NCBI RefSeq assembly: GCF_028689785.1
Contig: NZ_JAQVCN010000032.1
Span: 1-50,425, forward strand
Direction: 5' to 3'
Length of the DNA: 50,425 nt
Origin: Zoogloea sp.
GTDB taxonomy: Bacteria; Pseudomonadota; Gammaproteobacteria; Burkholderiales; Rhodocyclaceae
The stretch's first letter is position 1. Each line of letters begins with the position of its first letter. A program made the translations under genes and the position numbers. This document shows positions 5,934-33,724 of this stretch, piece after piece. The notes under the pieces were generated by a model. That model had not been told where the DNA came from. It made no database searches and saw only the letters and a program-made list of their open reading frames with translations.

Positions 5934-7700
5934 TTACTTGCTGTTGTGCAGCTTGAACACCCACACGGAACCGCCCTGCTCCAGGTAGTTCACGCGACGG
6001 GCCACGTCGCCGCCCCACAGGGGAACAGCACCACCCCAGCCGGACACCACGGCCACGTACTGCTCGCCGCCTTCCATCCAGGTAACCGGGGGAGCCACCA
6101 CGCCGGTGCCGGTCTGGAAGGACCAGACTTCCTTGCCGGTCTTGGCGTCCAGCGCCTTCAGGTAGCCCTCGGGGGTACCGTAGAAGGTCAGGTTGCCGCC
6201 GGTGGTCAGGACACCGCCCCACAGGGGAGCGAAGTTCTTGTTTTCCCAGACGATCTTGCCGGTGGTCGGATCCACGGCGCGCAGGGCGCCGATGTAGTCG
6301 TCGTGCAGGGCCTTGATGGTGAAGCCGGCGCCCAGGTAAGCGGCACCGCGCTTGTAGGAGACGGGCTCGTTCCAGATGTCCATGCCCCACTCGTTGGCCG
6401 GCACGTAGAACAGGCCGGTCTGCGGGTTGTAGGCGATCTGCTGCTGGTTCTTGCCGCCCAGGAAGGACGGTGCGGCGAAGACGTTCTTGCCCTTCTTGCC
6501 ATCGGCGCTGCCGGACGGGTCGCCCGGACGGTTCTCATCGACGTAGATGGGACGGCCGGTGGTCATGTCGAAACCCTTGGCCCAGGTGATGTCCTTGACG
6601 AAGGGGAAGATGTTCAGCGGCTTGCCGTTGGTACGGTCGAGCACGAAGAAGAAGCCGTTACGGTCAGCCTTGCCGCCCGCCTTGATGATCTTGCCGGTCT
6701 TCGGGTCCTTGTAGTCGAAGGACACGAATTCGTTCACACCGTCAAAGTCCCAGCCGTCGTGGGGGGTGGTCTGGTAGTGCCAGACGATCTTGCCGGTATC
6801 CGGGTCGATGGCCACAGTGGCGGAGGAGAACAGGTTGTCGCCAGGGCGCAGGTGGCTGTTCCAGGGAGCGGGGTTGCCGGTGCCGGCAAAGACCAGGTTG
6901 GTGTCGGGATCGTAGGTGGCGCCGTTCCAGGTGGCCGCGCCGCCGGTCTTCCAGAGGTCGCCGGTCCAGGTGGCGTTGAGGGTGCCGGAGATGCCGTTCT
7001 CGACCTTCTCGCCATTCACCCACTTGTAGCCCATGTGGCCTTCAACGGTCGGACGCACCCACACCATCTTGCCGGTCTTGGCATCGCGGGCTTCCATGCG
7101 GCCCTGCACGCCGAACTCGCCACCGGACACGCCGGTAATGACCAGGCCCTTGACGATCAGCGGAGCCGCCGTGGCAGAGTAGCCGGCAGCGTAGTCGTCG
7201 ATCTTCTCCTTCCACACCACCTTGCCGGTGTCCTTGTTCAGGGCCACGAGCTGGGCGTCGAGGGTGGCGAAGATCACCAGGTCGCCATACAGGGCGGCGC
7301 CGCGGTTGACCACGTCACAGCAGGGCATGATGCCCTCGGGCAGGCGGTGTTCGTACTTCCACAACTTCTTGCCGGTCTTGGCGTCCAGGGCAAAGATGCG
7401 GCTGTAGGAAGCCGTCACGAACATCTTGCCGTCATGGATCAGCGGCTGGGATTCCTGACCACGCTGCTTCTCACCACCAAAGGAGAAGGACCACACCGGA
7501 ACCAGGTTCTTGACGGTCTTGACGTTGACCTTGTCCAGCGGGCTGAAGCGCTGACCTTGCTGACCAAGGCCGAAGTGGGTGACGTCGCCGGTGGTCTTGG
7601 CGTCGTTGGCAATGTCAGCATCCGTAACTTCCTTGGCGTGGACCGAACCGGCCACCATCACGGCTGCCGCGATCAGGCTCAACGCAAACGGTTTTTTCAT
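5934..7700 (-). CDS. exaA: PQQ-dependent alcohol dehydrogenase, ExaA/PedH type
   Basis: A 588-residue periplasmic quinoprotein that oxidises primary alcohols such as ethanol and passes electrons to a cytochrome. Start ATG 7700 ([22 protein letters not shown], signal peptide) is preceded by AAAGGAG; an upstream in-frame ATG at 7721 lacks such a site. It has the eight-bladed propeller repeats ([23 protein letters not shown] and others), the vicinal disulfide Cys127-Cys128 and probable metal ligands Glu195, Asn276 and Asp318. Asp320, two residues after the catalytic Asp (WDFDGVNE), is the hallmark of lanthanide-using members such as PedH; calcium enzymes have Ala or Ser there. No cytochrome gene adjoins it. 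It is transcribed from a sigma-54 promoter. Confidence 0.93.
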
Positions 7701-7806
7701 TGTTTTGCTCCTTTGGATCATTGAATGTCTCCTTCGAGAAGGTGCTTAAGCGCAACCTGGGGCGACCACCTCCCGGCCCAACCAGGTCGTGCAGCGCTTT
7801 CCATGC

Positions 7807-7821
7807 GCAAGAGCTGTGCCA
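7807..7821 (-). promoter_or_regulatory. sigma-54 promoter of the PQQ dehydrogenase gene
   Basis: On the minus strand this reads TGGCACAGCTCTTGC, a complete match to the -24 (TGGCAC) and -12 (TTGC) consensus with the correct spacing. It predicts a start near 7795 and a leader of about 95 bases. The identical 15 bases occur on the other strand at 8141-8155. Confidence 0.88.
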
Positions 7822-7854
7822 AGGACTCGGCGCCGCGCCGGAAAATAGATCGGC

Positions 7855-7883
7855 CGGGAAAAATTCCCGATAGAAAACGGGAA
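7855..7883. repeat. palindrome CGGGAA-AAA-TTCCCG plus a third half-site
   Basis: CGGGAA at 7855-7860 and TTCCCG at 7864-7869 form an inverted repeat, and a second CGGGAA follows at 7878-7883. It lies 34 bases beyond the -24 element of the dehydrogenase promoter. It is a possible site for a regulator or bending protein; no regulator can be named. Confidence 0.45.
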
Positions 7884-7971
7884 GTTGGCTCTGGCTGAAA
7901 ACACGTTCGAATGGGAAAAATGCAGCCAATCTGGGCTATTCCGCCCAGCTTCTGCTTCATTCCACACCAAC

Positions 7972-7988
7972 TGCTCCAAGCTGGAGCA
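7972..7988. promoter_or_regulatory. central palindrome, candidate enhancer for the divergent sigma-54 promoters
   Basis: TGCTCCA-AGC-TGGAGCA, a perfect 7-3-7 inverted repeat centred at 7980. The midpoint between the two identical sigma-54 promoters is 7981, so it is about 185 bases upstream of both predicted starts. That is a normal distance for an enhancer-binding protein acting on both sides. No such activator gene is in the window. Confidence 0.55.
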
Positions 7989-8006
7989 CCCCGAAGCAGA
8001 ACAGGC

Positions 8007-8035
8007 GCGACAGCTGTACCACTTGCGACAGATGT
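8007..8035. repeat. direct repeat GCGACAGcTGT / GCGACAGaTGT
   Basis: Two 11-base near-identical copies at 8007-8017 and 8025-8035, 18 bases apart, on the side of the central palindrome nearer the SoxYZ-like operon. They may be additional regulator half-sites (for example for the response regulator encoded in the operon). This rests only on position and repetition. Confidence 0.4.
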
Positions 8036-8140
8036 CCGCAGCACAGAACAAGCGAGCCCGTGGCTCTCCGGTCCACGCAAACCCTTGCCCCCCGTGCCGA
8101 AGACCGTTTCCGGCTGACGGGCCGCCGACCTTTCGGGCCA

Positions 8141-8155
8141 TGGCACAGCTCTTGC
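8141..8155 (+). promoter_or_regulatory. sigma-54 promoter of the quinoprotein relay operon
   Basis: TGGCACAGCTCTTGC, followed by A: a complete -24/-12 match. The predicted start is near 8167, 48 bases before the first ATG (8215), which has an AGGAGA ribosome site. It is identical in all 15 bases to the promoter of the divergent dehydrogenase gene, which argues that both units are switched by the same activator. Confidence 0.9.
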
Positions 8156-8214
8156 AGCACCTTTCGCAGCAAACAGAGCGCGCCGCCACCGGCAGGCCGC
8201 CGTCAGGAGACAGA

Positions 8215-9003
8215 ATGAAGAAGCAAGCCCTCGCGGCCTTCGCGGCCCTGTGGATGGCCTGTGCCTGCACTACAGGCCATGCGGCCACCCCTGCCGAGCG
8301 CCGCACCGACCCCCTCGACTCGCCCCGCTGGGCCGACATGCGCAAGGAGATGTTCCCCGCGTCGTCTCAGGTCGTCTTTGACGACCGGGTCAAGGTCACC
8401 GCCCCCCTCACCGCCGAAAACGCCATGAACGTTCCGGTGAGCGTGGACGCCAGCGCCCTGCCGGGTGTGCGCGAGGTGCTGGTCTTCGCCGACTTCAACC
8501 CCATCGTGCGCATCGTCCGCTTCGAGCCCAGCGGCGCCCACGCGGCCCTGGGCTTCCGCATCAAGCTGCAGCAGTCCACCCCCGTCCGCGCCGCGGTGCG
8601 CACCGCCGACGGCACCTGGCACGTGGGTGGCACCTGGGTCAATACCGCCGGCGGCGGCTGTACCCTGCCGTCCACCAGCAGCGGCTCCCCCGAATGGCAG
8701 AAGCGTCTGGGCGAAGTGAGCAGCCGCGTGTGGGCCCGCAAGGAAGGCGGCGAGCGCATCCGTCTGCGCATCATCCACCCCATCGACACCGGCCTCGCCG
8801 CCGGCATTCCGGCCTTCTTCCTGCAGGACCTGGATCTCAGCGACGACCAGGGCAAGGCCCTGATGCACATCGAGGGCTTCGAGCCCATCGCCGAGAACCC
8901 GGTCTTCACCGTCGACATCCCTGCCGCCCGGGCCGCCGCCGGATATCGAGTCAGCGGCCGCGACAACAACGGCAACGCCATCTCGGCAGAGATCGAAAAA
9001 TGA
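8215..9003 (+). CDS. quinoprotein dehydrogenase-associated SoxYZ-like carrier
   Basis: A 262-residue exported protein. Start ATG 8215 (MKKQALAAFAALWMACACTTGHA) gives a signal peptide and follows an AGGAGA site; the open frame extends further upstream without one. It matches the SoxY-SoxZ fusion described beside PQQ dehydrogenases: an N-terminal SoxY-like beta-sandwich ending in AGGGCTLPS, where Cys149 may be the carrier thiol, and a C-terminal SoxZ-like domain (~residues 170-262). In sulfur oxidation SoxYZ carries substrate on a cysteine; here the role is presumably an analogous periplasmic carrier, unproven. First gene of the operon; its stop overlaps the next start. Confidence 0.85.
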   Translation: MKKQALAAFAALWMACACTTGHAATPAERRTDPLDSPRWADMRKEMFPASSQVVFDDRVKVTAPLTAENAMNVPVSVDASALPGVREVLVFADFNPIVRIVRFEPSGAHAALGFRIKLQQSTPVRAAVRTADGTWHVGGTWVNTAGGGCTLPSTSSGSPEWQKRLGEVSSRVWARKEGGERIRLRIIHPIDTGLAAGIPAFFLQDLDLSDDQGKALMHIEGFEPIAENPVFTVDIPAARAAAGYRVSGRDNNGNAISAEIEK

Positions 9004-9968
9004 CCGCCCTCCCGCGCCCCATCTCCTGCTTCGCCCGCGGCCTGATTACCGTCTTCGCCCTCGGCTGGACCCTGCTCCTGGCTGCCGCCGACCGGGACTA
9101 TGGCCTCGCCCCCGTGCGCATCGCCGAAGACACCTGGGTGCTGGTCGGGCGCAGCGAAGACTTCAGCTTTGCCAACGGCGGCAACATCGTTAACACGGCC
9201 TTCATCGTCACCCGTGCCGGCGTGGTGGTGATCGACAGTGGCCCGTCACGGGTCTATGGCGAGCAGCTCAAGCGCGCCATCGCCCGCATCACTGACAAGC
9301 CGGTGACTCTGGTGCTCAATACCCACCACCACCCGGACCACTTTCTGGGCAATCAGGCCTTTGCCCCCGACACCCTGGCGGCACTGCCTGCCACCATCAA
9401 GGGCATCCACAGTGAAGGCGGCAGCCTCAACGAGAACATGTACCGCCTGGCCGGTGACTGGATGGCCGGCACCGAGCCCGTCGCCCCGGCTCGCCCCCTC
9501 GCTGCCGGCCCCCTGGAGATGGGCGGGCACCGCTTCGAGCTGATCGCCCTTGCCGGCCACACCGTGGCCGACCTGGTCATCCTCGACCGCAGCACCGGGG
9601 TGCTCTTTGCCGGCGACCTGGTGTTCAACGACCGCACCCCCACTACGCCCCATGCCAACCTGCCGCGCTGGCAGGCTGCCCTCGACCAGCTCGAGAAGAC
9701 CCCCTTCACCACCCTTGTCCCCGGCCATGGCCCGGTGGCTGGCGATGCCGGCCCGATCCGCCAGACCCGTGCCTGGCTGGCCTGGCTGGACCGTCAGCTG
9801 CGCCAGGCGGCCAACGACGGTCTTGACATGACCGAAGTCCTGGCCCTGCCGCTGCCGGCGGAATTCCGCAGCCTGGCCGTGGTCGACGCGGAATACCGCC
9901 GCTCGGTCGGCCAGCTCTATCCGGCCTACGAGCAGGCGGCCCTTTCCGGCGACCGCCACAAGCCATGA
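9000..9968 (+). CDS. quinoprotein relay system zinc metallohydrolase (MBL fold)
   Basis: A 322-residue protein starting at ATG 9000, which overlaps the preceding TGA. It has an N-terminal hydrophobic export signal (~residues 11-30). The metallo-beta-lactamase signature is THHHPDH (His109, His111, Asp113, His114), with further ligands in the LAGHTVADLV and LFAGDLVFND segments and the late PGHGP. It belongs with the SoxH-related metallohydrolases that accompany PQQ dehydrogenases and SoxYZ-like carriers. It probably hydrolyses a thioester or similar intermediate on the carrier, which is inference from SoxH and gene pairing. Confidence 0.85.
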   Translation: MTALPRPISCFARGLITVFALGWTLLLAAADRDYGLAPVRIAEDTWVLVGRSEDFSFANGGNIVNTAFIVTRAGVVVIDSGPSRVYGEQLKRAIARITDKPVTLVLNTHHHPDHFLGNQAFAPDTLAALPATIKGIHSEGGSLNENMYRLAGDWMAGTEPVAPARPLAAGPLEMGGHRFELIALAGHTVADLVILDRSTGVLFAGDLVFNDRTPTTPHANLPRWQAALDQLEKTPFTTLVPGHGPVAGDAGPIRQTRAWLAWLDRQLRQAANDGLDMTEVLALPLPAEFRSLAVVDAEYRRSVGQLYPAYEQAALSGDRHKP

Positions 9969-10777
9969 ACACCGCCCTGCCGCTGCCCGCCATCGCCTGG
10001 CCACGCCCCGCAGCGCTGCCGCGCCCCCTGCGGCTGGCCATCGGCCTGTCGATCGGCATCCACGCGCTGGCCCTGCTGGTACAGGGCAAGGGCCTGACGC
10101 CTCCCCCGGCCCCACCGCCTACCCTCGAAATCGTGCTCCGCGCACCGCTACCCTTGCCACAACCCGTCCAGCTTGCGCCGGTCAGCCAGCCGTCTGTTGA
10201 AAGGCAGCCACCAGCACAACTGCCTCCCCGCATCGAAACCCGCGCGCGCGCGCCGCAGGCTGCGCCCCACCCGGCGCCCACCCTGCCCCGCCCGCTTGCC
10301 CAGCCCTCCAGCACTGCGCCGGCCCTGCGCTCCGACCCCAGCCCGACCACCTCAGCACTTGCCGCGCCTGTCATCGAAAACCCAGCCCCCCCTGCAGTCG
10401 CCATCGCCGCTCCGCGGCCGGTCCACGCCGAACCTGCCGTGGTCGCCGCCCCAACTGCCGATGAGCCCCTCGATCCGGCCCTGCTCGAACGCTACGGGCG
10501 CAGCCTCTCCAGCCTTTTCGCACGCCAGCAGAACTACCCTCGGCTGGCCGCCATGCGCGGCTGGGAGGGCGAAGTGCAGGTGCGCATCACCATCGCCCGC
10601 AAGGGCAACATCGTGGCCGCCCAGGTAGTGCGGTCAAGCGGCTTTGAAGTCCTCGACCAAAGCGCCATCCAACTGGTCTCGGGCGCAGGCCAACTGCCCC
10701 GACCGCCTGAAGCCCTGCAGAACCGCGAACTTCAGATCGTCGTCCCCGTGCTCTTCAAACTGGAGAAACCGGCATGA
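9965..10777 (+). CDS. TonB family energy transducer
   Basis: A 270-residue TonB-type protein. It has an N-terminal transmembrane anchor (~residues 20-40, RLAIGLSIGIHALALLV, with the His typical of TonB anchors), a long Pro/Ala-rich periplasmic spacer (~45-170) and a C-terminal TonB domain (~175-270: QNYPRLAAMRGWEGEVQVRI, then SGFEVLDQSAIQLV). It would transmit the ExbBD proton-motive signal to an outer-membrane receptor. No exbB/exbD genes are present here. ATGA overlap on both sides places it firmly in the operon. A likely client is the TonB-dependent receptor encoded at 15.6-17.8 kb. Confidence 0.88.
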   Translation: MNTALPLPAIAWPRPAALPRPLRLAIGLSIGIHALALLVQGKGLTPPPAPPPTLEIVLRAPLPLPQPVQLAPVSQPSVERQPPAQLPPRIETRARAPQAAPHPAPTLPRPLAQPSSTAPALRSDPSPTTSALAAPVIENPAPPAVAIAAPRPVHAEPAVVAAPTADEPLDPALLERYGRSLSSLFARQQNYPRLAAMRGWEGEVQVRITIARKGNIVAAQVVRSSGFEVLDQSAIQLVSGAGQLPRPPEALQNRELQIVVPVLFKLEKPA

Positions 10778-12225
10778 ACGCAGCCGCCGGCACCCTTCCC
10801 TCCGGTCCCGAAATCAACATCACGCCCAGCCCTGTGGGCAACAGCCAATCCCTGCGGCTGCGGGTTAGTCTGGTGCTCACTGCGCTCGCCGCCGCCTTTG
10901 TGATCGCCAGTGCCGCCCTGTGGGTACGCGACGCCCGCACCGCCATCACCGAAGAGATCACCGCCGCCCACCGGGTGGCCGCCCAATGGTTGTCCGTATC
11001 CGCACAGGGCACCGCTGCCGGTGATCCGGCCTGGACGGAGGCCCGACTGCTCGCCCACCTCAACGCCGTCGGCCGCATCCGCGCCCACCAGCTCGAAGCT
11101 CGCGACGAATCAGGCCGTCTGCTGTACACCTCTCCACCCTCCGCTTACAAGCCCGGGCGCGACGCCCCCGACTGGTTCACCCATTGGATGGAGCCCGGCA
11201 TCCCGGCCATGACCCTGCATGCCGGCAAACTCACCCTGCACCTGCAGCCCGACCCTTCGCGAGCCCTGGTGGACCTGTGGGACGACGTCAGCGCGGCGGC
11301 GGCCCGCGCCCTGCTGGCCCTGACCGGCCTGTTCATCGGCAGCTGGTTTGCCATCCACCATGCCCTCAAACCCCTTGAAGACGTGATGGCCGCCCTGGAC
11401 CGCACCGGCCAGGGCAAGTTCGACACCCGCCTGCCCACCGACGGCCCCGCCGAGCTGGCCCGCCTGGGCCACGCCTTCAACGGCATGGCCCGACGCCTAA
11501 ACGAAGCCGTGATCGAGAACGTCCGCCTGACCCACGAACAGGCCGTGGCCCGGGCCATCACCGAGCGCCTCGAAGCCGACCGCCTGGCCATCGCCCGGGA
11601 TCTCCATGACGAACTCGGCCAGAGCATCACCGCCGTCGCCGCCCTCGCCGGCGCCATCGTCCAGCGCAGCACCGACACACCCCAGATCCACCAGAGCGCC
11701 GAGGTCATCCGCGACGTGGCCTCACGCATGCAGGGCGATGTGCGCGCCCTGCTCACCCGCCTGCGCCCCCCTGGCAGCAGTGCCCAGCGCGAAACCCTGG
11801 ACGACGCGGTGCGCAGCTACCTCGCCAGCTGGAGCCGCCATCACGCCGACATCGAGCTGTCCACCGAGCTCTTCGCCGGCCCCCAGCCCCTGCCCGACGA
11901 CATCACCCTGGCCACCCTGCGCATCGTTCAGGAGTCGTGCACCAACATCGTCCGCCACGCCCTGGCCAGCCGGGCCCGGGTGCGCCTGCTGCGCGAGGGC
12001 GACACCCTGACCATCGAGATCAGCGACAACGGACGCGGTATCTTGCCCGCGCCGGGCCAGGCGGGCTTCGGCCTCGCCGGCATGCGCGAACGGGTCATCG
12101 GCCTGGCCGGCGACCTGGACATCAGCAGCCCGCCGGGCGGTGGCACGCGCATCCGCGCCCGCCTGCCCCTCACCCCGCTGGAGCCCCCTGCCCCTGCCCC
12201 CCTCCCGGAAGGCCGCCCCTCATGA
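10774..12225 (+). CDS. NarX/UhpB-type sensor histidine kinase
   Basis: A 483-residue membrane sensor. A first transmembrane helix (~residues 30-50), a periplasmic sensing segment (~50-170) and a second helix (~172-195) are followed by a HAMP region (FAIHHALKPLEDVMAALDRTGQG) and the HisKA_3 motif ARDLHDELGQ with phospho-acceptor His278. The HATPase part contains EISDNGRG and GFGLAGMRERV. This is the kinase class that pairs with LuxR-family regulators, and the response regulator gene overlaps its stop. It probably senses a periplasmic or membrane signal tied to alcohol oxidation; the ligand is unknown. Confidence 0.9.
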   Translation: MNAAAGTLPSGPEINITPSPVGNSQSLRLRVSLVLTALAAAFVIASAALWVRDARTAITEEITAAHRVAAQWLSVSAQGTAAGDPAWTEARLLAHLNAVGRIRAHQLEARDESGRLLYTSPPSAYKPGRDAPDWFTHWMEPGIPAMTLHAGKLTLHLQPDPSRALVDLWDDVSAAAARALLALTGLFIGSWFAIHHALKPLEDVMAALDRTGQGKFDTRLPTDGPAELARLGHAFNGMARRLNEAVIENVRLTHEQAVARAITERLEADRLAIARDLHDELGQSITAVAALAGAIVQRSTDTPQIHQSAEVIRDVASRMQGDVRALLTRLRPPGSSAQRETLDDAVRSYLASWSRHHADIELSTELFAGPQPLPDDITLATLRIVQESCTNIVRHALASRARVRLLREGDTLTIEISDNGRGILPAPGQAGFGLAGMRERVIGLAGDLDISSPPGGGTRIRARLPLTPLEPPAPAPLPEGRPS

Positions 12226-12869
12226 GCGCACCCGCCCCCATGTCCACCCTGTCACTGGTCCTTGCCGATGACCACGCCATCGTCCGCATGGGCTTCCGCC
12301 TGCTCCTGGAGGGCGTCGGCGCCCGGGTACTGGCCGAGGCCGACAGCGGCGAGGCCGCCCAGCAGCTGATGCACGAGCTCGACCCCGACGTGCTGGTGAT
12401 GGACCTCTCCATGCCCGGTTGCGGCGGCCTTGCCGCGCTGGAGCGCATCCTCGCCCGCAAGCCCGGCCAGAAGGTGCTGATCGCCTCGGCCCACGCCGAC
12501 GCCCTCACCGCCGAGCGGGCCCTCAAGGTGGGTGCCGCCGGCTATCTGTGCAAACGCAGCCCCCCCGACGAACTGCTCAAGGCGGTGAGTCTGGTGGCTG
12601 TCGGCCAACGCTACATTGACCCGGAGATCGCCGCAGCCCTGCGCCGTGCCGATCGCCCGGAACACCCCGCCGAGACCCTGACCGACAAAGAATTCAGCGT
12701 CTTCCTGCAACTGGCCCAGGGCCGCTCGGTAGCTGAAGTGGCCGAAACCTTCCACCTCAGCCCCAACACCGTCGGCACCCATCTCTATCACATCAAGCAG
12801 AAACTCGGCGTGCAGAACATGGCCGAACTGGCCATGGCTGCCGTGCGCTCCGGCCTGATCGAGGTTTAA
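12222..12869 (+). CDS. NarL/FixJ family response regulator
   Basis: A 215-residue regulator starting at ATG 12222, overlapping the kinase stop. The receiver domain has the acidic pair in LADDHAIVR, phospho-acceptor Asp61 in VLVMDLSMPG and the conserved Lys in GYLCKRS. The C-terminal LuxR-type helix-turn-helix (~residues 152-212) reads LTDKEFSVFLQLAQGRSVAEVAETFHLSPNTVGTH in segments. NarL-type regulators do not activate sigma-54, so it cannot by itself open the two sigma-54 promoters beside it. It probably controls other targets or modulates these. Confidence 0.9.
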   Translation: MSAPAPMSTLSLVLADDHAIVRMGFRLLLEGVGARVLAEADSGEAAQQLMHELDPDVLVMDLSMPGCGGLAALERILARKPGQKVLIASAHADALTAERALKVGAAGYLCKRSPPDELLKAVSLVAVGQRYIDPEIAAALRRADRPEHPAETLTDKEFSVFLQLAQGRSVAEVAETFHLSPNTVGTHLYHIKQKLGVQNMAELAMAAVRSGLIEV

Positions 12870-12916
12870 GCCACACGGCCTGCCGCCCCCCTCCTTTCCC
12901 CACCTGAGAGAGCTCC

Positions 12917-13435
12917 ATGAACAACAAAGCCGCAGTCCTCATTGCCACCCTCGCCCTGGCCGCAGCCACCCCAGCCCTGGCCGCCCGCCAGCCCCTCAAG
13001 GTTACCGAGCATATCGACATCTCCGCCCCGCCCGCCAAAGTGTGGGAAGTCGTGCGCGACTTCGGCAACCTGGCCTGGCATCCGGCCGTGGGCAGCACCA
13101 CCATCGACAAGGGCGTCAAGGACAAGCGCGGTGCCGTGCGCACCGTCACCACCAAGGACGGCGCCAAGCTGGTCGAAGAACTGCTCAGCCACCAGGACTC
13201 CACCCGCAGCCTCAAATACCGCATCATCGACTCGCCGCTGCCGGTAAGCGACTACGTGTCCACCCTCAAGGTCAAGGCCGCCAAGGGCGGCAGCCGCGTG
13301 GAGTGGTCGTCCACCTTCAAGCGCAAGGACGAAAAGCCCGCCGAAGGGGCTGACAACGCCGGCGCCAAGAAGGCGGTCACCGGCATCTACACCAGCGGTC
13401 TGGACGCCCTCAAGCAGCAGCTCGAAGCCAAGTAA
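12917..13435 (+). CDS. exported SRPBCC family protein, MxaD-like
   Basis: A 172-residue protein with a signal peptide (MNNKAAVLIATLALAAATPALAA) followed by a START/SRPBCC fold (VTEHIDISAPPAKVWEVVRDFGNLAWHPAV). The family includes MxaD, a periplasmic protein that aids electron transfer between methanol dehydrogenase and cytochrome cL, which suits its place beside a PQQ dehydrogenase operon. A GAGAG ribosome site precedes the start. It lies 47 bases after the response regulator and 15 before the next gene, so it is probably co-transcribed. Confidence 0.82.
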   Translation: MNNKAAVLIATLALAAATPALAARQPLKVTEHIDISAPPAKVWEVVRDFGNLAWHPAVGSTTIDKGVKDKRGAVRTVTTKDGAKLVEELLSHQDSTRSLKYRIIDSPLPVSDYVSTLKVKAAKGGSRVEWSSTFKRKDEKPAEGADNAGAKKAVTGIYTSGLDALKQQLEAK

Positions 13436-13450
13436 GCCCCAACGACGCCC

Positions 13451-15601
13451 ATGGATGCACGCCGCCTCCTGCGCCGCGCTGCATCCGGCGCCGCCCTGCT
13501 CCTCGCCAGCCTGGGTCTGCCGGCCCTGGCTGGCGACCTGAACCAGGCCGACATCGCCCGGCGCTTCCAGCCCCCCCTGCATGTGGGCGACAAGCTGCGC
13601 GATGTCCCAGCCTGGCCCATCACCAGCGAACTCGAACCCGAAGCTGGCCCGGTGGCCTACGCCTTCGAATCCATCGACCTGGCCCCCATCCCGGGTTTCG
13701 AGGGCACCCCCATGAACCTGCTGGTCAGTATCGACCGCAAGGGCAACTTCATGGACGTGGAGCTCTTGCGCCAGCACGAGCCGGTGTTCCTGTCCGGCCT
13801 GGGCGAAGGCCCCCTGCGCGACTTCCTGGCCCAGTACGCCAACAAGAGCCTCAAGCAGGAAATCACCGTCTCCAGCCTGTACGGCAACACCCGCGCCGGT
13901 GCCGGCGGCAACCGGGTGGTGCTGGACGGGGTGAGCAAGGCCACCGCCTCGGTGCGCATCGTCAACCAGACCATCCTCACCTCGGCCCTGGCCGTGGCCC
14001 GCGCCCGTCTGGGTTTTGCCGCGCCGGCAGAAAAGGGGCCACTGGCACGCGTCCGGGACGATCTTTACGAGGCCCGCAGCGTTGACGCGCTACTCAAGTC
14101 TGGCGCCATCGGTCGTCTGCACCTGAGCAATGCCGATGTGGAGCAGCGCTTCGCCGGCAGCGACGGCGCCGGCGTGGATGCAGAGGCCCTGGCCCGCCCC
14201 GGTGAGACCTTCATCGACCTGTACGTGGCCTACCTCAACGCCCCCACCATCGGCCGGGCCATTCTTGGCGACGCCGGCCACGCCGACCTGATGCGCCGGC
14301 TGGAGCCTGGCCAGCACGCCTGGTGGGTGGCCAGCGCCGGGCGCGACGCCTATATCGACGAGAACTTCACCCGCGGCACCGTACCCGCCCGCCTCGCCTT
14401 CAGTCAGGGCGGTGCGCCGGTCGAGCTGCGCGACCTGGACCTGTCACCCCGCCCACCCAGCGGCGCACCGCCCCTTAACGCCGCGCTGGTGCTGCGTGTC
14501 CCCCCCATGTCCGGCATCGACCCGGCCAGCCCGGTGCGCTTTGAGCTCACCCTGAGCCGGGCCAAGGGCTCCATGCTCCCGGTGATCACGCAACGCAGCG
14601 CCCACCTGGACTACCAGGCGCCGGAAGCGCTGTTCTACCGTCCCCCGCCCCCCCTGCCCGACTGGCTCATCGCCTGGAAAGACCGCCGCGTCGAGCTGGG
14701 CATCATCATCACCGCCCTGGCCCTGCTGTCGGTGGTGCTGGCCCGGCCCCGCTGGATCTCCGTATCGGCGCCCCGGCTGAAGGCCTTCCGCCTAGCCTTT
14801 CTGGCCTTCACCCTGGGCTACATCGGCTGGTATGCCCAGGGGCAGCTGTCCATCGTGCAGATCACCGGGGCGATCAAATCCCTGGTGGCCGGCGCCGGGC
14901 TGAAGAGCTTTCTCTACGACCCGGTGAGCCTGCTGCTGATCGCCTTCACCTTGATGAGTTTCGTGGTGTGGGGCCGCGGCACCTTCTGCGGCTGGCTGTG
15001 CCCCTTCGGCGCGCTGCAGGAGTTCGCTGCCCTGCTCGCGCGCGCCCTGCGTCTGCCCCAGCTCAAGCTGCCCACTCAGCTGGCTGGCCTGCTGGACCGG
15101 GGCCGCTTCGTCATTCTGGCTGCCCTCGCCGCGCTGGCCGCCATCGCCCCCCAGTGGGCCGAGAAGGGCGTCGAGGTGGAACCCTTCAAGACCGCCATCA
15201 CCGTGGGCTTTGACCGCAGCGCACCCTTCGTCGCCTATGCACTGATCCTGCTCGTGCTCGGGGGCCTATACTACAAGTTCTTCTGCCGCTACCTGTGCCC
15301 CCTGGGCGCCGCCATGGCTCTGGGCGGCAAACTACGCCTGCTCGACTGGTTGCCCCGCCGCAGCGAATGCGGCCAACCCTGTCAGACCTGCCGCCACCGC
15401 TGCGCCTACGACGCCATCGAGAAGAGCGGCGCCATTCGCTATGAGCGCTGCTTCCAGTGCCTCGACTGCGTCGGCATTTACCACGATGCCGGCCGATGTG
15501 CGCCAATCATGCTGATACACAAGAAGGACAAGGGCCGAAGCGATGGCCCCCGCCGTGGCGGGCGGCAACCTGAACCAGATCATCGAGCCGGGCAGGCATG
15601 A
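13451..15601 (+). CDS. NosR-like FMN-binding / iron-sulfur membrane protein
   Basis: A 716-residue protein with the NosR/NirI layout. It has a signal peptide, then a periplasmic FMN-binding domain (~residues 80-190) with a flavin-attachment-like site SKATAS. Transmembrane helices begin near residue 415 and carry the two polyferredoxin-like motifs GRGTFCGWLCPFGALQEF and FFCRYLCPLGAA. The C-terminal cysteine cluster (CGQPCQTCRHRC, CFQCLDC) can hold two 4Fe-4S clusters. NosR feeds electrons to periplasmic N2O reductase; no nos genes are near. Here it probably links the quinol pool or cytoplasm with the periplasmic relay. The last ~25 residues are atypically polar and another frame stays open past the stop, so the C-terminus is uncertain. 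Confidence 0.82.
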   Translation: MDARRLLRRAASGAALLLASLGLPALAGDLNQADIARRFQPPLHVGDKLRDVPAWPITSELEPEAGPVAYAFESIDLAPIPGFEGTPMNLLVSIDRKGNFMDVELLRQHEPVFLSGLGEGPLRDFLAQYANKSLKQEITVSSLYGNTRAGAGGNRVVLDGVSKATASVRIVNQTILTSALAVARARLGFAAPAEKGPLARVRDDLYEARSVDALLKSGAIGRLHLSNADVEQRFAGSDGAGVDAEALARPGETFIDLYVAYLNAPTIGRAILGDAGHADLMRRLEPGQHAWWVASAGRDAYIDENFTRGTVPARLAFSQGGAPVELRDLDLSPRPPSGAPPLNAALVLRVPPMSGIDPASPVRFELTLSRAKGSMLPVITQRSAHLDYQAPEALFYRPPPPLPDWLIAWKDRRVELGIIITALALLSVVLARPRWISVSAPRLKAFRLAFLAFTLGYIGWYAQGQLSIVQITGAIKSLVAGAGLKSFLYDPVSLLLIAFTLMSFVVWGRGTFCGWLCPFGALQEFAALLARALRLPQLKLPTQLAGLLDRGRFVILAALAALAAIAPQWAEKGVEVEPFKTAITVGFDRSAPFVAYALILLVLGGLYYKFFCRYLCPLGAAMALGGKLRLLDWLPRRSECGQPCQTCRHRCAYDAIEKSGAIRYERCFQCLDCVGIYHDAGRCAPIMLIHKKDKGRSDGPRRGGRQPEPDHRAGQA

Positions 15602-15646
15602 CGAGCTTGATGCGATCCCTACCCCCTGGCCCTGGCCATCCATCGC

Positions 15647-17794
15647 TCAGTAACGGGCCCGCACAGTCAGCACCACGTTTCGCGGATCGCCATAGAGGTT
15701 GTAGGTGTTGGTGCCACCCAGCCGGGTGTAGTAGTCGCTGTCGAAGACATTGTTGACGTCCAGGGTCGCCGACCAGTTGCGGTCGATGGCGTAGCCGACC
15801 TGCAGCTTGTACACCGTGTAGGCATTCTGGGTGCGGGCCGCCACCGTGGAGGTGGCGGCCCCGCTGGCACTCGTCCCCTGCCCCTGGAGGCCGAACCCGA
15901 TGCTGAAGCCGCGCAGGGGGCCGCTGTCCGCAAAGCGGTAGCGGGACCACAGCTTGATCAGTTCCTTCGGATACCAGAAGCTCACCGGCAAGCCGGTGCT
16001 GGCGCCATTGTTCACCCAACGTGTGTCCATCCAGGTGTAACCGGCGGAGACGTCCCAGCGAGGCATGATCTGCCCCACCAGCTCCAGCTCGCGGCCTTTG
16101 CTCTCCAGCTCGCCGGCGGTGGTGAAATAGCCGGGATTGGCCGTATCGGACTGGGCCCGGTTGGTGTCGCGGATGTTGAACACCGAGGCATTGACGGACA
16201 GGCGGTCATCCAGCAACCCGGCCTTGGCACCAATCTCGTACTGACGCCCGACTCGCGGATCGAGGATGCTGTTGTCCACCCGCTTCTGGGTCTGGGGTAC
16301 AAAGATGTCGGCGTAGCTGGCGTAGAGGGTGAGTTGACGGCTTACGTCCCAGGTGAGCCCTGCATAGGGGGTGAACTCGCCCTCAGCCCGTGCGCCGCGC
16401 GCCCATGCCGTGGGGGTGGGGTTGGGGGCTGTCGTGCGGGACTTGTAGGTGTAGTCCGAGAAGCGGCCCCCCAGGATGAGCTTCAGCGGGTCGGCCAGAT
16501 TGAGTGTCAGGCGGCCATACAAACCGGTCTGAGTGGTTACGCTGTGGCTGCCGGTGCGATACGTCACTTCCAGCTCCGGCACGGCCGGGGGGTCGGCGAG
16601 GAGCACGTTGGTGTAGGTCAGGCTGGAACTGCCCGGCGAGTTCGGATTGGCACCCCGGCCGCGGCTGTCGAAGCTGCTGAAGTTGGCCCCGACCAACACG
16701 TTGTGCTCACGTCCGAACAAACTGAACGGACCGCCAGCGTAGGCATCCACGGCTTCATGCACGTAGTCGTATATGAACTCCCGGCGGGCATAGCTGGCAA
16801 TCACGTTGGTCGCCGGGTTGACGCCGGCATTGGCATAGCCGTCCTTGAAGAACTGGCTCTGATCGCGCCGCTGCAGCTTCAGGGTGGCGGTCCAGCGATC
16901 ACCGAAGCGGTGGCTCAGGTCGGCGCCGATATCGGTGGTGTCCCACTCGATGCGGTTCCAGTCCGGATACGGGTTGAAAGAGCGGGGCACCGACAGCTGG
17001 CGTCCATCGGTGTAGGTCGGCAGACCGGAAAACCCGGTCGAGTCATTGGTGAGATTGGCCACGAAGAGATTGAGGGTGGTCGCCGGGGAGAAGTCATAGT
17101 CCACGGTCAGATAGCCCAGCCACTTGCGGTCATGGACGCGATTGAATACGTAATCCCGGTCCACCACCGACAGCACACCCCGGGCGCGCAGGCTGCGGGA
17201 CTCATTCACGACCGCGCTCACGTCTGCCTCAAGTCGGTTGTTGTTCCAGGTCCCCGTGGAGGCCAGCGCCGATGCGGCGAACACATCATTCGGACGCTTG
17301 CGCACCAGGTTGACTGCCCCCGAGAAGGAACCAGCCCCCTGGAGCAGGCCCGCCGGGCCACGCATCACCTCAACGCGGTCGTACAGGGCCAGGTCGAACT
17401 GCTGATAGCCGGAGAGGGGCAGGGTGGACGGCAGACCGTCCTGCTGGACTTCGAGGGCGCCACCCCGCGAATGGAACTGGCCCTGGGTGATGTCGTTGGC
17501 GATGGCCTGAACACCGGTGATCTGGGACAGGGCGTCCCAGGGGGTGACCATGTTCTGGTCGTCCATCTGCTGGCGGGTCAGCACCGATACCGAGTTGGGA
17601 ATCTCCCGAGGCGACTGGGGCAGCTTGCCGGCCACCGTAGCCGTCTCGGCCCCGTAGGACGACACCCTTGATGCCTCCACCCTGACTTCGGGCAGGATCG
17701 GAGCGGGCCCAGGCGCCCCCTCTGTCGGGGAGGCAATGGCGCCTCCGGAGTGAATGGCACCGATCAGCGCGGCAAATCGCAGCGGAATATGCAT
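15647..17794 (-). CDS. TonB-dependent siderophore-type outer-membrane receptor
   Basis: A 715-residue receptor with a signal peptide (to about residue 22), a plug domain (~35-165: VSVLTRQQMDDQN, TPWDALSQITGV, VEVMRGPAGLLQGAGSFSGAVN) and a 22-strand-type barrel ending in VVLTVRARY. It resembles the FpvA/FhuE group that import metal-siderophore complexes. The terminal residue is Tyr rather than the usual Phe, which is tolerated. It is convergent with the NosR-like gene (45-base gap) and so is not in that operon, but it sits next to the only TonB gene in view. The substrate cannot be read from sequence: iron is likely, a rare-earth chelate possible. Confidence 0.9.
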   Translation of the reverse strand: MHIPLRFAALIGAIHSGGAIASPTEGAPGPAPILPEVRVEASRVSSYGAETATVAGKLPQSPREIPNSVSVLTRQQMDDQNMVTPWDALSQITGVQAIANDITQGQFHSRGGALEVQQDGLPSTLPLSGYQQFDLALYDRVEVMRGPAGLLQGAGSFSGAVNLVRKRPNDVFAASALASTGTWNNNRLEADVSAVVNESRSLRARGVLSVVDRDYVFNRVHDRKWLGYLTVDYDFSPATTLNLFVANLTNDSTGFSGLPTYTDGRQLSVPRSFNPYPDWNRIEWDTTDIGADLSHRFGDRWTATLKLQRRDQSQFFKDGYANAGVNPATNVIASYARREFIYDYVHEAVDAYAGGPFSLFGREHNVLVGANFSSFDSRGRGANPNSPGSSSLTYTNVLLADPPAVPELEVTYRTGSHSVTTQTGLYGRLTLNLADPLKLILGGRFSDYTYKSRTTAPNPTPTAWARGARAEGEFTPYAGLTWDVSRQLTLYASYADIFVPQTQKRVDNSILDPRVGRQYEIGAKAGLLDDRLSVNASVFNIRDTNRAQSDTANPGYFTTAGELESKGRELELVGQIMPRWDVSAGYTWMDTRWVNNGASTGLPVSFWYPKELIKLWSRYRFADSGPLRGFSIGFGLQGQGTSASGAATSTVAARTQNAYTVYKLQVGYAIDRNWSATLDVNNVFDSDYYTRLGGTNTYNLYGDPRNVVLTVRARY

Positions 17795-25102: not shown

Positions 25103-26803
<1,701 letters not shown>

Positions 26804-26842
26804 GTCAGGCCTCCAGGTGGATTGAGGGGCGATGCCGATCCC

Positions 26843-26909
26843 GTGGGGTCGAATTCATTCGACCTCGGTGGTGGATCGACGTGTGCTGGTCGAATGAATT
26901 CGACCCCAC
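26843..26909. repeat. palindromic repeat, copy A (ureB-ureC gap)
   Basis: Two perfectly complementary 22-base arms (26843-26864 and 26888-26909), beginning GTGGGGTCGAATTC and ending GAATTCGACCCCAC, separated by a 23-base centre (TCGGTGGTGG...). RNA from either strand would form a long hairpin. Related copies are at 29956 and 44587, with half copies at 23936, 44078 and 44725. Confidence 0.9.
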
Positions 26910-26929
26910 AACAACTGCGTACCTGCCGC

Positions 26930-27235
26930 TCATAACGCCCCCATGACCTGCCCGTTGAAACCAAAGACCTTGCGGTCTCCCGCCAGGGCCACCAGCTCGA
27001 CCGTGCGGGTCTGGCCGGGCTCGAAGCGCACGGCGGTGCCGGCGGCGATGTTGAGCCGGTAGCCCCGCGCCGCGGCCCGGTCAAAATCCAGGGCCAGGTT
27101 GGTCTCGGCGAAGTGGTAGTGGGAGCCCACCTGGATCGGGCGGTCGCCGGTGTTGGCCACCGTGATGGTCAGGGTGGCGCGGCCGACGTTGAGCTCCAGC
27201 TCGCCGTCAAGGGTGTCGATTTCACCGGGGATCAT
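26930..27235 (-). CDS. ureB: urease beta subunit UreB
   Basis: A 101-residue structural subunit. It opens [19 protein letters not shown] and has the conserved [17 protein letters not shown] stretch and [29 protein letters not shown]. Length is typical of separate UreB. It lies 9 bases after ureA, so the two are translationally close. Confidence 0.97.
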
Positions 27236-27244
27236 GATTGCGCC

Positions 27245-27547
<303 letters not shown>

Positions 27548-27614
27548 AGTGAATCCTTCCTTTCGTGTCAGTGTGGGGCACCGGCCGGCAGCTGGCCATC
27601 CGCGCCCGTGAATA

Positions 27615-28505
27615 TCAGGTATGCCAGATCCGGGGCACCGCTGCCGGGCGCCCCACGATGGCCGGGCGCAGCACCGCCCAAAGGGCGACGAACCAGGCCC
27701 GGGCCGCCTCGGCCGACGGCCCCAGGTAGCGGGCCACCAGCAGGTCGGGCAGACGAGTCACGGCGCCCTCCCCCACCTGCGGCCGAATTGCCCGGCAGGC
27801 CTCCAGCAGGCTCCCATCGAGCGCTTCAGACGCCACCAGCAGGCTGCCGGTGACCGGCTGCCCGCACAGGCCCACCGGCGAATCCAGCAGGCGCGAGCCC
27901 CCTTCGATCAGCCCCTGCTCGCTCCAGATCAGCCGGCCATCCCGCTCGATGCGCGACGCCAGCCGCAGCTGCCCGCGGGTCAGGCGCTCGCCGGACGCGG
28001 TACGGCCGAGGCACAGCAGATCCAGCCCGATGAAGGTGGCGTCGCCGGCCAGACGCCCGACGGTCTCGGTGCGCCCATTCACCCGGGCGAAAACAATGCT
28101 CTCCTGGGGCAGCCACTCCAACACCCCGCCCGCCCCCACCTCGAAGTCCAGGCGCTGGGTGGCCAGCGGGCCATTGCTGCGATACCACTTGCCGGCCCCC
28201 GGCGTGGTGATCAGGGCCTTCGCCCCCTCGCCCACCCGCACCTGCACCGTCAACGCATCCCCCCCGGCGATCCCTGCCGGCGGGTGCAGCATCAGGGCGT
28301 GGCACACCTCCGGGCCCTCGGGATAGAGCGCCTTCTGCACCCTCAAGGGGCCTTCATGGCGCCTATGCACCAATACCGTGCCATGGCCAGCGCGAGCCTC
28401 GAAGCCAAGCTCCAGGCGGGCGCACCAATTGCGGGCGTTATTGTTTGATAAATCAGCGGCCTCGGAAGGCCTCACCCCGTCGGGGGAAGAAATTGTCACC
28501 AACAT
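27615..28505 (-). CDS. ureD: urease accessory protein UreD
   Basis: A 296-residue protein, the scaffold that binds apo-urease and UreF during nickel insertion. Family segments are present: [55 protein letters not shown] and [12 protein letters not shown], then [10 protein letters not shown]. It is the first gene of the ure run on the minus strand. The start ATG 28505 follows an AT-rich stretch that also holds the promoter region of the divergent gene at 28640. Confidence 0.95.
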
Positions 28506-29235: not shown

Positions 29236-29928
29236 TCACACCGACAGCATCTCCCGCACCTGCTTGGCCTCCATCTCGTCGCCGCGGCCGGCGCTGATGA
29301 TCTCGCCGCGTTCCATCAGCAGGTAGTGGTCGGCCAGGGAGCGGGCGAAGTCGTAGTACTGCTCCACCAGCAGGATGGCCATCTCGCCGGTTTCGGCCAG
29401 GGCGCGGATGGCGCGTTCGATGTCCTTGATGATGGAGGGCTGGATGCCTTCGGTGGGCTCGTCGAGGATCAGCAGCCTGGGCCCCGGGGCCAGGGCGCGG
29501 CCGATGGCGAGCTGCTGCTGCTGGCCGCCCGACAGGTCGCCGCCGCGGCGCCGCATCATCTGTCTGAGCACCGGAAACATCTCGAAGATGCGGGCCGGCA
29601 CCTCGCTGCCGGCGGGCCGGGTGGCGAGGCCCATCAGCAGGTTCTCCTCCACCGTGAGGCGCGGGAAGATCTCGCGCCCCTGGGGCACGTAGCCGATGCC
29701 GGCGCGCACGCGGCCATAGCTGGGCGCCCGGGTGATGTCCTCGCCGCCCAGCTGGATGCTGCCGGTGGCGGCGGGCACCAGGCCCATCAGGGTCTTGAGC
29801 AGGGTCGTCTTGCCCACCCCGTTGCGCCCGAGCAGGGTGGTGACCTTACCCATGGGCACGTCAAAGCTGACATTACGCAGGATGTGGGAGCCGCCGTAGT
29901 ACTGGTTCAGGTTGGTGACGGTGAGCAT
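29236..29928 (-). CDS. urtE: urea ABC transporter ATP-binding protein UrtE
   Basis: A 230-residue LivF-type ATPase. Walker A is GRNGVGKTT, the signature LSGGQQQ, Walker B LLILDEP and the H-loop-like region ILLVEQYYDFA contains the Gln/Glu expected of this family. Start ATG 29928 (MLTVTNLNQYYGGSHILRNVSF); an open frame further upstream only runs through the palindromic repeat. With UrtD it powers urea import through UrtBC. It is separated from urtD by about 100 bases holding repeat copy B. Confidence 0.95.
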   Translation of the reverse strand: MLTVTNLNQYYGGSHILRNVSFDVPMGKVTTLLGRNGVGKTTLLKTLMGLVPAATGSIQLGGEDITRAPSYGRVRAGIGYVPQGREIFPRLTVEENLLMGLATRPAGSEVPARIFEMFPVLRQMMRRRGGDLSGGQQQQLAIGRALAPGPRLLILDEPTEGIQPSIIKDIERAIRALAETGEMAILLVEQYYDFARSLADHYLLMERGEIISAGRGDEMEAKQVREMLSV

Positions 29929-29955
29929 TGCGTGTTCCTCTTTCAATATTCCCTT

Positions 29956-30020
29956 TGGGGTCGAATTCAATCGACCTCGGTGGCTCATCGACGCATGCAG
30001 GTCGAATGAATTCGACCCCA
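29956..30020. repeat. palindromic repeat, copy B (urtD-urtE gap)
   Basis: 21-base arms (29956-29976, starting TGGGGTCGAATTC, and 30000-30020, ending GAATTCGACCCCA) with one mismatch and a 23-base centre close to that of copy A (TCGGTGG, ATCGACG and TGC shared). It follows directly on the urtD stop on the minus strand. Confidence 0.9.
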
Positions 30021-30029
30021 CAGGCCTCG

Positions 30030-30881
30030 TTATCGGCCCAGATACACCTCAATGACCCGTGGATCGGCCTGCACGGTGGCCAGGTCGCCTTCGGCGAGCA
30101 CCGAGCCTTCGCACAGCACCGTGACCTTGCCGCCCAGGGCTTCGACGAAAGCCATGTCGTGCTCGACGACCATCAGCGAGTGCTTGCCCTTGAGGCTCAC
30201 AAAGAGTTCGGCGGTGCGCTCGGTCTCGTCGTCGGTCATGCCGGCCACGGGTTCGTCCAGCAGCAGCAGTTTCGGGTCCTGCACCAGCAGCATGCCGATC
30301 TCCAGCCACTGCTTCTGGCCGTGGGAGAGCAGGCCGGCGGGCCGGTCGGCCTGGTCGGCAAGGCGGATCTGCTTAAGGGTGTCGGCGATCTTGTCCAGGT
30401 CGTCGCCAAACAGGCGGGCAAACAGGCTCTTCTTGACCCGCTTGTCGGTTTTCAGGGCCAGCTCCAGGTTCTCGAACACCGAGTGGTTCTCGAAGATGGT
30501 GGGCTTCTGGAACTTGCGGCCGATGCCGGCGTGGGCGATCTGCGGTTCGGTGAGGCGGGTCAGGTCGATGGTCTGGCCGAAGAAGGCCTTGCCCGAGTCA
30601 GGACGGGTCTTGCCGGTGATGACATCCATCATGGTCGTCTTGCCCGCGCCGTTGGGGCCGATGATGCAGCGCAGCTCACCGGCGTCAATTTGCAGCGACA
30701 GCTTGTTGAGGGCACGGAAGCCATCAAAGCTCACCGTGATGTCGTCCAGGTAGAGCATGACCCCGTGGGAGAGGTCGAGCTCGCCGGGCTTGAGCACGTG
30801 GCCGGTGTTGGCGGCCCCGTCCCAGTGTTCCTTCTGGCCGTCGGCCGGGGCATTGCGGGAGATGGAGGATTCGACGCGCAT
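30030..30881 (-). CDS. urtD: urea ABC transporter ATP-binding protein UrtD
   Basis: A 283-residue LivG-type ATPase. Start ATG 30881 gives an N-terminal extension of about 40 residues before the ATPase core (MLYLDDITVSFDGFRALNKLSL). Walker A is GPNGAGKTT, the signature LLSHGQKQWLEIG, Walker B LLLLDEPVAGM and the switch VVEHDM. It is adjacent to urtC with no real gap. The extension is somewhat longer than typical but in frame and with ordinary codon use. Confidence 0.95.
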   Translation of the reverse strand: MRVESSISRNAPADGQKEHWDGAANTGHVLKPGELDLSHGVMLYLDDITVSFDGFRALNKLSLQIDAGELRCIIGPNGAGKTTMMDVITGKTRPDSGKAFFGQTIDLTRLTEPQIAHAGIGRKFQKPTIFENHSVFENLELALKTDKRVKKSLFARLFGDDLDKIADTLKQIRLADQADRPAGLLSHGQKQWLEIGMLLVQDPKLLLLDEPVAGMTDDETERTAELFVSLKGKHSLMVVEHDMAFVEALGGKVTVLCEGSVLAEGDLATVQADPRVIEVYLGR

Positions 30882-30883
30882 GC

Positions 30884-32095: not shown

Positions 32096-32110
32096 GGGCG
32101 TGCCCTCCGC

Positions 32111-33700: not shown

Positions 33701-33724
33701 GGGTGTTCCCCGGATGCGGGTGGT

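Follow-up and report, generated by a model that had tools for sequence, protein, structure and literature searches.

We analyzed a 50,425-nucleotide (nt) stretch of Zoogloea DNA (the window; 65.6% G+C), corresponding to contig C48 in a genome of 5.08 Mb (G000). It contains a seven-gene operon encoding a fused SoxYZ-like carrier, a metallohydrolase with the metallo-beta-lactamase (MBL) fold, a TonB family protein, a sensor histidine kinase (HK), a response regulator (RR), an SRPBCC protein and a NosR-like membrane protein, transcribed divergently from a gene for a dehydrogenase dependent on pyrroloquinoline quinone (PQQ). We consider it reasonably probable that this locus serves alcohol oxidation by a PedH-type dehydrogenase, probably a lanthanide-dependent one, as well as the supply of its metal, and that the TonB protein of the operon would serve a LutH-like receptor. 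The receptor served is most likely not the one encoded next to the operon. A preliminary description of the window had suggested that the operon couples quinoprotein alcohol oxidation to the uptake of a metal chelate, possibly a rare-earth one, through this adjacent, convergent receptor. Our analysis upheld the connection to a PedH-type dehydrogenase and revealed a history of the TonB protein with LutH-like receptors, whereas the convergent receptor had to be abandoned as the partner.

The dehydrogenase, the divergent operon and their promoters

Comparison with solved structures placed the dehydrogenase closest to 6zcv (873 bits) and 6zcw (859 bits), followed by 1flg (705 bits), which we take to be the calcium enzyme ExaA, and XoxF 6dam (386 bits). 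Among 27 aligned relatives, at least 95% retained D325, D327 and C134-C135. The D-x-D motif, WDFDGVNE, is identical to that of 6zcv and 6zcw in the alignment, and 6ZCW is given as PedH in the available part of PMC11996626. The lanthanide signature that had been pointed out in this enzyme is indeed present, and its closest solved relatives are PedH. By sequence, the dehydrogenase is of the PedH type and probably lanthanide-dependent. Four further members of the superfamily were found in the same genome at E ≤ 1e-40. In the closest paralog (54% identity, contig C90) the second aspartate is replaced by serine, which presumably represents the calcium form.

Table 1. Features of the dehydrogenase-operon region and the unlinked receptor paralog (window positions unless a contig is given).
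Feature	Position	Strand	Evidence
PedH-type PQQ-dependent alcohol dehydrogenase	5934-7721	-	TIGR03075, 778 bits; D325-x-D327; vicinal C134-C135
Sigma-54 type (-24/-12) promoter before dehydrogenase	7807-7821	-	perfect TGGCACN5TTGC
Palindrome, candidate activator site	7972-7988	.	TGCTCCA-N3-TGGAGCA; midway between promoters; only perfect copy in window
Sigma-54 type (-24/-12) promoter before operon	8141-8155	+	perfect TGGCACN5TTGC
Fused SoxYZ-like carrier	8215-9003	+	TIGR04557, 212.7 bits (curated cut-off 140)
Quinoprotein relay system zinc metallohydrolase 1 (MBL fold)	9000-9968	+	TIGR04558, 440.5 bits (cut-off 300)
TonB family protein	9965-10777	+	TonB_C, 65.9 bits
Sensor histidine kinase (HK)	10774-12225	+	HAMP, HisKA_3, HATPase_c
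NarL/UvrY-type response regulator (RR)	12222-12869	+	Response_reg, GerE
SRPBCC (START-like) protein	12917-13435	+	Polyketide_cyc2 PF10604, 122.9 bits
NosR-like membrane protein	13451-15601	+	NosR model NF046105, 532.6 bits (below 1000-bit cut-off)
TonB-dependent ferric-siderophore-type receptor	15647-17794	-	TIGR01783, 316 bits
LutH-like receptor paralog, same genome	C78:27402-29861		next to kinase gene; divergent TonB-ExbB-ExbD-type genes (to 32172, L067)

Gene calls and family scans, the latter covering part of the open reading frames in the window rather than every one, recovered all seven genes of the operon, the first five overlapping, as previously described. Exact 4-nt overlaps were observed at the junctions SoxYZ/MBL, MBL/TonB, TonB/HK and HK/RR, followed by gaps of 47 nt between the RR and SRPBCC genes and 15 nt between the SRPBCC and NosR-like genes. 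The arrangement is not due to chance, since other Zoogloea also have the genes in the order SoxYZ-MBL-TonB-HK-RR, pointing away from the dehydrogenase gene. The seven genes do not form one fixed unit. A survey of gene neighborhoods showed that TonB is missing in some relatives from other genera, and that the presence of the SRPBCC and NosR-like genes varies from locus to locus; we regard these two as optional accessories.

The SoxYZ-like carrier contains a single conserved cysteine, Cys149, and the metal ligands of the hydrolase are H111, D113, H187 and H243, each retained in at least 95% of 28 aligned sequences. To our knowledge, no functional test of this carrier and relay hydrolase has been described. 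The genome contains four TonB_C matches, among them the TonB protein of the operon. For the HK, weak matches to LapD_MoxY_N, the periplasmic domain of MoxY-type sensors, were obtained (E 0.047 and 0.019), with scores below the gathering threshold. The SRPBCC protein, earlier called MxaD-like, agrees with that name at the level of the fold (PF10604) but with nothing narrower, and the family scan gave no NCBIfam match. For the NosR-like protein, the NosR model covers residues 35-691 of 716 and the sequence contains two CX3CP motifs as well as ferredoxin-like cysteines; the cysteine set and T165 are conserved in 12 sequences. The protein is 82-93% identical to its Zoogloea homologues, and relatives adjoin ApbE in Variovorax (L090) and M. 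extorquens (L097).

The two sigma-54 type promoters are near-identical and located within the 493-nt divergent region (7722-8214). They are the only perfect sites in the 50-kb window, where a hand calculation based on nucleotide composition gives about 0.1 expected; when up to one mismatch was tolerated, there was no window-wide excess (4 sites versus 5.8 expected). With the same tolerance, 37 of the 39 loci compared had a site no more than 150 nt from the SoxYZ start (L026 and L192 being the exceptions), and all 38 loci that have the dehydrogenase gene had one before it. Beyond that set of loci, a site precedes the dehydrogenase in L134, L142 and L186, among which only L186 also has one before SoxYZ; neither gene has a site in L093 and L141, and none was found before SoxYZ in L137 and L138. 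The palindrome between the promoters was present in 7 of 36 divergent regions (the window, L020, L024, L026, L039, L072 and L178). The conserved sites on both sides suggest that the dehydrogenase and the operon are probably expressed together. The regulator of the operon, being of the NarL type, is no sigma-54 activator, so that another activator is to be expected; none was identified among the scanned window proteins, the rest of the genome not having been searched.

LutH-like receptors in the operons of relatives

Operon layouts at the family level were inspected in 20 chosen regions out of 79 genomes with SoxYZ. A LutH-like receptor was observed inside the operon in L028 (on the same contig as L174), L029, L031, L033 (identical to L182), L034, L069, L175-L181 and L183-L185, and in L070 it precedes HK-RR on a contig that begins at the receptor. 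The tonB gene is located directly before the receptor in nine of these loci (L028, L069, L175-L180 and L185, the last one without a kinase pair after them). In Cognatazoarcus (L028), the receptor is flanked by TonB and HK. Other loci contain the receptor without TonB (L029, L031, L033, L034, L181, L183, L184); in Denitromonas (L031, L033, L034) and Zoogloeaceae G21618-S1 (L029) it is placed between MBL and HK, the copy in L031 being shortened. The reverse situation, TonB without the receptor, is found in the window type and in L026.

Within Zoogloea, where loci were assigned to genomes through the lengths of their contigs, two genomes carry an in-operon receptor (G005 and G019), which is 58-59% identical to that of Cognatazoarcus. 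The order in G005 is SoxYZ-MBL-TonB-receptor-HK-RR, with genes overlapping from MBL onward, and the contig of G019 begins at the receptor. Another 18 Zoogloea genomes contain paralogs of the kind encoded on contig C78 of our genome, mostly with 43-53% identity and located away from the operon, and no genome contains both kinds. No LutH-like receptor was found in G003, G009 and G016, whose assemblies are 80-86% complete. The surroundings of the C78 receptor were read in two genomes (L067 and L083), and those in G007 (L083) repeat the arrangement in Table 1. In L185, the receptor directly after tonB is of the C78 kind (57%), which shows that both kinds can occupy the same place in the operon.

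A tree of the dehydrogenase, SoxYZ, MBL and RR (midpoint root) placed the window type as sister to a clade of seven loci, with a support of 1.0 for the joint clade. Six of the seven sister loci have both TonB and the receptor, L026 being the exception. The simplest reading of these patterns is that the receptor was lost from the operon in the lineage of the window, while TonB was kept. Such a loss raises the alternative that the operon is an ordinary accessory set of a PQQ-dependent alcohol dehydrogenase, using calcium or lanthanide, with TonB as a functionless leftover; the persistence of SoxYZ-MBL-HK-RR without TonB in other genera fits with this as well. We regard it as unlikely. Among the 17 window-type genomes in which the TonB-HK junction is assembled (G000-G004, G006, G007, G010, G011, G013-G015, G017, G018 and G020-G022), tonB is joined to the kinase gene in all 17, with the 4-nt overlap in each of the 14 that were gene-called, which would not be expected for a relic. 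None of the 17 has a receptor in the operon, but 16 of them keep a LutH-like receptor elsewhere. Absence of tonB from relatives, which would have spoken against the preliminary description, was thus not observed in the window-type genomes of Zoogloea. The data support a history of the operon TonB with a LutH-like, lanthanide-type chelate receptor.

The convergent receptor shows a different pattern. It had been described as the only TonB-dependent receptor in view; it does converge on the operon, and no second one was detected among the scanned window proteins, which do not comprise every open reading frame. The possibility that it is the partner of the operon TonB and imports a rare-earth chelate draws on its position 45 nt past the end of the operon, its unbroken reading frame and its chelate-receptor type. 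However, its best matches among solved structures are the receptors for pyochelin (345 bits), pyoverdine (304 bits) and alcaligin (292 bits), and it falls outside the LutH-like sequence family, serving only as a distant outgroup in the receptor tree. It was present in 2 of the 14 Zoogloea loci that reach at least about 3 kb beyond the NosR-like gene (the window, L017, L018, L020-L025, L027, L036, L038, L039 and L041), namely the window and L017, where a chemoreceptor gene intervenes. In L039, a stretch of 55 residues with 50% identity was found and nothing more. Relatives with at least 65% identity occur in 4 of 23 Zoogloea genomes, and in G006 and G020 the receptor gene and the operon are located on different contigs. 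A different receptor, moreover, occupies the operon in relatives. The affiliation with siderophore receptors, the presence in 2 of 14 loci and the placement on other contigs lead us to reject it as an operon partner and to take it as a chance neighbor outside the conserved operon; the partner role is highly improbable. Its absence from most related loci also runs counter to the preliminary description. Iron control of the gene is likewise unsupported, as the 19-bp Fur-box consensus with at most three mismatches gave no match in the window, although a high-GC Fur box may fit this consensus less well. A pirin-family gene is located upstream of the receptor.

The receptor family and the probable route of the metal

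A search with a 10-sequence receptor alignment identified members at E ≤ 1e-90 in 37 of 398 genomes drawn across the phylum, at 39 places, of which 38 were examined for their surroundings (15-20 kb), the remaining one being C78 itself. A Lut/Ped-type ATP-binding cassette (ABC) permease (at least 55% identity) was found in 18 of these 38 neighborhoods, a PQQ-dehydrogenase in 12 (38-97% to a reference), SoxYZ in 5, a lanmodulin-like gene in 3 and pqq genes in 3; at least one of them occurred in 26. The family members adjacent to lanM were matched by the receptor alignment at E 3e-186 (L151), 4e-186 (L152) and 4e-162 (L156). On a plasmid of M. nodulans (L095), a receptor relative (31%) is located one gene away from an EF-hand protein with the loops DPDNDGT, DPDKDGT (twice) and NPDGDGT, which we take to be of the lanmodulin type. 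Plasmids of Sphingobium and Novosphingobium carry the receptor beside MBL-SoxYZ, a Variovorax plasmid combines PQQ-dehydrogenase, HiPIP, receptor, ApbE and NosR-like genes, and a B. multivorans plasmid combines PQQ-dehydrogenase, receptor and pqqABCDE. According to the available part of PMC7391723, the lutH gene of M. extorquens AM1 (META1p1785) adjoins both lanM (1786) and the genes for the Lut ABC system, and mutants in lutH lack La3+ deposits. The adjacency to lanM and Lut ABC genes, together with the sequence family, suggests that the operon receptor belongs with LutH.

The receptor and the fused SoxYZ co-occur among genomes. Receptor searches scored up to two candidates per genome in the phylum draw and up to four in the family draw, so that the receptor counts may miss some, and SoxYZ rows with an in-frame stop or a score below the cut-off were removed before tabulation (38 genomes in the phylum draw, 3 in the family draw). 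Out of the 398 genomes of the phylum draw, 37 had the receptor and 44 the fused SoxYZ; 28 genomes had both, 9 only the receptor, 16 only SoxYZ and 345 neither. The corresponding numbers for the 249 genomes of the family draw were 78 and 79 (both 61, receptor alone 17, SoxYZ alone 18, neither 153), with an odds ratio of 30.5. Since species are not independent, the test was made at the genus level, where 30 of 68 genera had the receptor, 27 had SoxYZ and 22 had both (Fisher p 8e-7). In the family, the two genes were at most 2.5 kb apart in 21 genomes from 9 genera and at most 20 kb apart in 30 genomes from 15 genera, as compared to about 1% per genome expected from random placement.

Import of PQQ itself, the cofactor instead of the metal, would be another role for the LutH-like receptor and TonB. 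Some family members are located beside pqq genes, and among solved structures the in-operon receptor comes closest to the PQQ importer PqqU/YncD. However, no NCBIfam equivalog fits the in-operon receptor, and the PqqU model NF041535 scored 104 bits against a cut-off of 1200. Since 22 of the 23 Zoogloea genomes contain pqqE, PQQ is probably synthesized by these bacteria. The same receptor family is also found beside lanM and Lut/Ped ABC genes, and lutH was needed in that setting for cellular La3+ deposits according to the available text of PMC7391723. Thus, we give PQQ import only a small chance.

No Lut/Ped-type ABC permease was found in the 17 Zoogloea genomes searched out of 23, whereas all six controls, chosen because the permease had already been seen in their receptor neighborhoods, were positive. 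TIGR03863 was uninformative, with no match in the 23 Zoogloea genomes nor in the controls. The searched Zoogloea genomes thus showed no inner-membrane ABC importer of the kind that defines the lut/ped uptake systems. This absence suggests that the metal is not carried to the cytoplasm by the Lut/Ped ABC route and probably stays in the periplasm.

Several observations weigh against a lanthanide-supply locus with a LutH-like receptor as the partner of TonB. The PqqU/YncD structure noted above matches the in-operon receptor with 52 bits, the exploratory tree unites the receptor family, including the lanM-adjacent members, with a support of 0.23 for this clade, and 12 of the 38 receptor neighborhoods contain none of the linked genes. 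None of these is annotated near the Methylocalor relative, and on an Ideonella plasmid (L089) a 54% relative with a kinase pair is located near methanobactin-type copper genes, with no PQQ-dehydrogenase in the stretch, so that some family members need not be lanthanide receptors. The C78 receptor is 41-48% identical to the in-operon kind and has its own TonB-ExbB-ExbD and kinase genes. We considered whether it shares the promoter type of the operon, and no sigma-54 site (at most one mismatch) was found before receptors of this type in L067, L083 and L131. Both TonB and the receptor are missing from the operon in L187 and L189-L193; L187 and L189-L191 keep SoxYZ-MBL-HK-RR, indicating that import is not obligatory for this core, while L192 and L193 also lack the kinase pair. 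The tree node of the window type has a support of 0.73. Finally, the genome encodes another D-x-D enzyme of the superfamily (contig C57, 38%; WDWDEVS). Together with the serine form on C90, this makes a metal switch possible in this genome, and the enzyme of the window need not be the sole user of lanthanides.

Proposed mechanism and comparison with known systems

Lanthanide transport at this locus is inferred from linkage and family membership, and the mechanism that we propose is as follows. Sigma-54 would drive the shared expression of the dehydrogenase and the operon. The TonB protein would energize a LutH-like receptor, in our genome the unlinked one on C78, as gene linkage suggests. Through this receptor, a lanthanide chelate would reach the periplasm and there provide the dehydrogenase with its metal, and the two-component system may report periplasmic metal or substrate. 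The SoxYZ-like, MBL, SRPBCC and NosR-like proteins may have a part in enzyme assembly or in electron handling. More specifically, the single-cysteine carrier and the metallohydrolase may act on the vicinal disulfide of the enzyme or on its cofactor, and the motifs of the NosR-like protein suggest a flavo-iron-sulfur protein that could move electrons across the membrane. SoxYZ-like and metallohydrolase proteins are described as accompanying dehydrogenases with adjacent cysteines in the available part of PMC12997753. A more far-reaching and tentative possibility is a lanthanide economy restricted to the periplasm in Zoogloea and its kin. It would combine a sigma-54 regulon of the PedH-type enzyme with its own TonB, LutH-like delivery to the periplasm only, a periplasmic-sensing two-component system in place of cytoplasmic sensing, and a previously undescribed periplasmic redox relay of SoxYZ, MBL and NosR-like proteins that loads or services the enzyme.

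Some additional genes were observed in the window and in relatives. At 41287-43074 (minus strand), the window encodes a divergent PQQ-dehydrogenase-like protein with a TIGR03075 score below the cut-off and WGYD at the motif, adjoining a solute-binding protein (43071-43919). Beside the PedH-type gene in L175, L176, L178, L181-L185 and L190, there are genes for a PedF-like cytochrome and a second PQQ-dehydrogenase, which is 54-56% identical to that of Azospirillum; these loci mostly carry another kinase-regulator pair, and a calcium/lanthanide pair at one locus is possible. The genome also encodes a second fused SoxYZ carrier (C116:18224-18871, L068), about 55% identical to that of the window, with its own MBL gene and no window-type PQQ-dehydrogenase among the gene calls in the surrounding 20 kb. 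Urease structural genes and ureD are found at 25103-28505 of the window, and a branched-chain-type, perhaps urea, ABC transporter at 29236-35102.

No title or abstract opening among the literature matches listed described this operon, and it was compared with systems that share some of its parts. The ped cluster of P. putida resembles it in that a PedH-type dehydrogenase (PP_2679, pedH) is located beside a SoxYZ-like carrier (PP_2677) and a SoxH-like metallohydrolase (PP_2678), with two-component systems in the cluster (available part of PMC12997753). It differs in that the available parts of PMC12997753 and PMC6839425 give P. putida no LutH homolog and a PedA1A2BC importer, whereas the operon of Zoogloea contains tonB, that of relatives also the LutH-like receptor, and the ABC permease was not detected in the 17 Zoogloea genomes searched. 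How lanthanides pass the outer membrane of P. putida is presented as a pending question in PMC12997753, as far as the available text goes. The operon provides a direct genetic test of this type of question, with no more than 2.5 kb between the LutH-like receptor and SoxYZ in nine genera of one family and tonB in front of the in-operon receptor in five of the inspected genera. Given the permease result, entry of the metal into the cytoplasm is predicted to be unnecessary, and the divergent sigma-54 sites point to a single regulon for the enzyme and the uptake parts. The SoxYZ-like carrier and the relay hydrolase also gain a firm list of partners. Both proteins scored above the cut-offs of TIGR04557 and TIGR04558, whose model names omit TonB, the receptor, the NosR-like protein and sigma-54 control.

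The lut cluster of M. extorquens AM1 (lutA-lutH, lanM) likewise links a LutH-like receptor to a lanthanide-dependent PQQ dehydrogenase system (available part of PMC7391723). Here, by contrast, the receptor of relatives shares an operon with the TonB, SoxYZ, MBL and two-component genes, the dehydrogenase is of the PedH type and not of the XoxF type, and no Lut-type ABC genes or lanM were seen at the locus. A TonB-dependent receptor and a TonB-like protein are described as conserved with lanthanide methanol dehydrogenases (Keltjens 2014 and Wu 2015, cited in the available part of PMC6839425); the present locus differs from that pairing in its PedH-type enzyme, its SoxYZ and MBL genes and its divergent sigma-54 promoters. 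Finally, the NosR-like protein shares with NosR of nitrous oxide respiration a near full-length match, the CX3CP motifs and the ferredoxin-like cysteines, but it reaches about half of the model cut-off, and its genes are located in quinoprotein loci and elsewhere beside ApbE.

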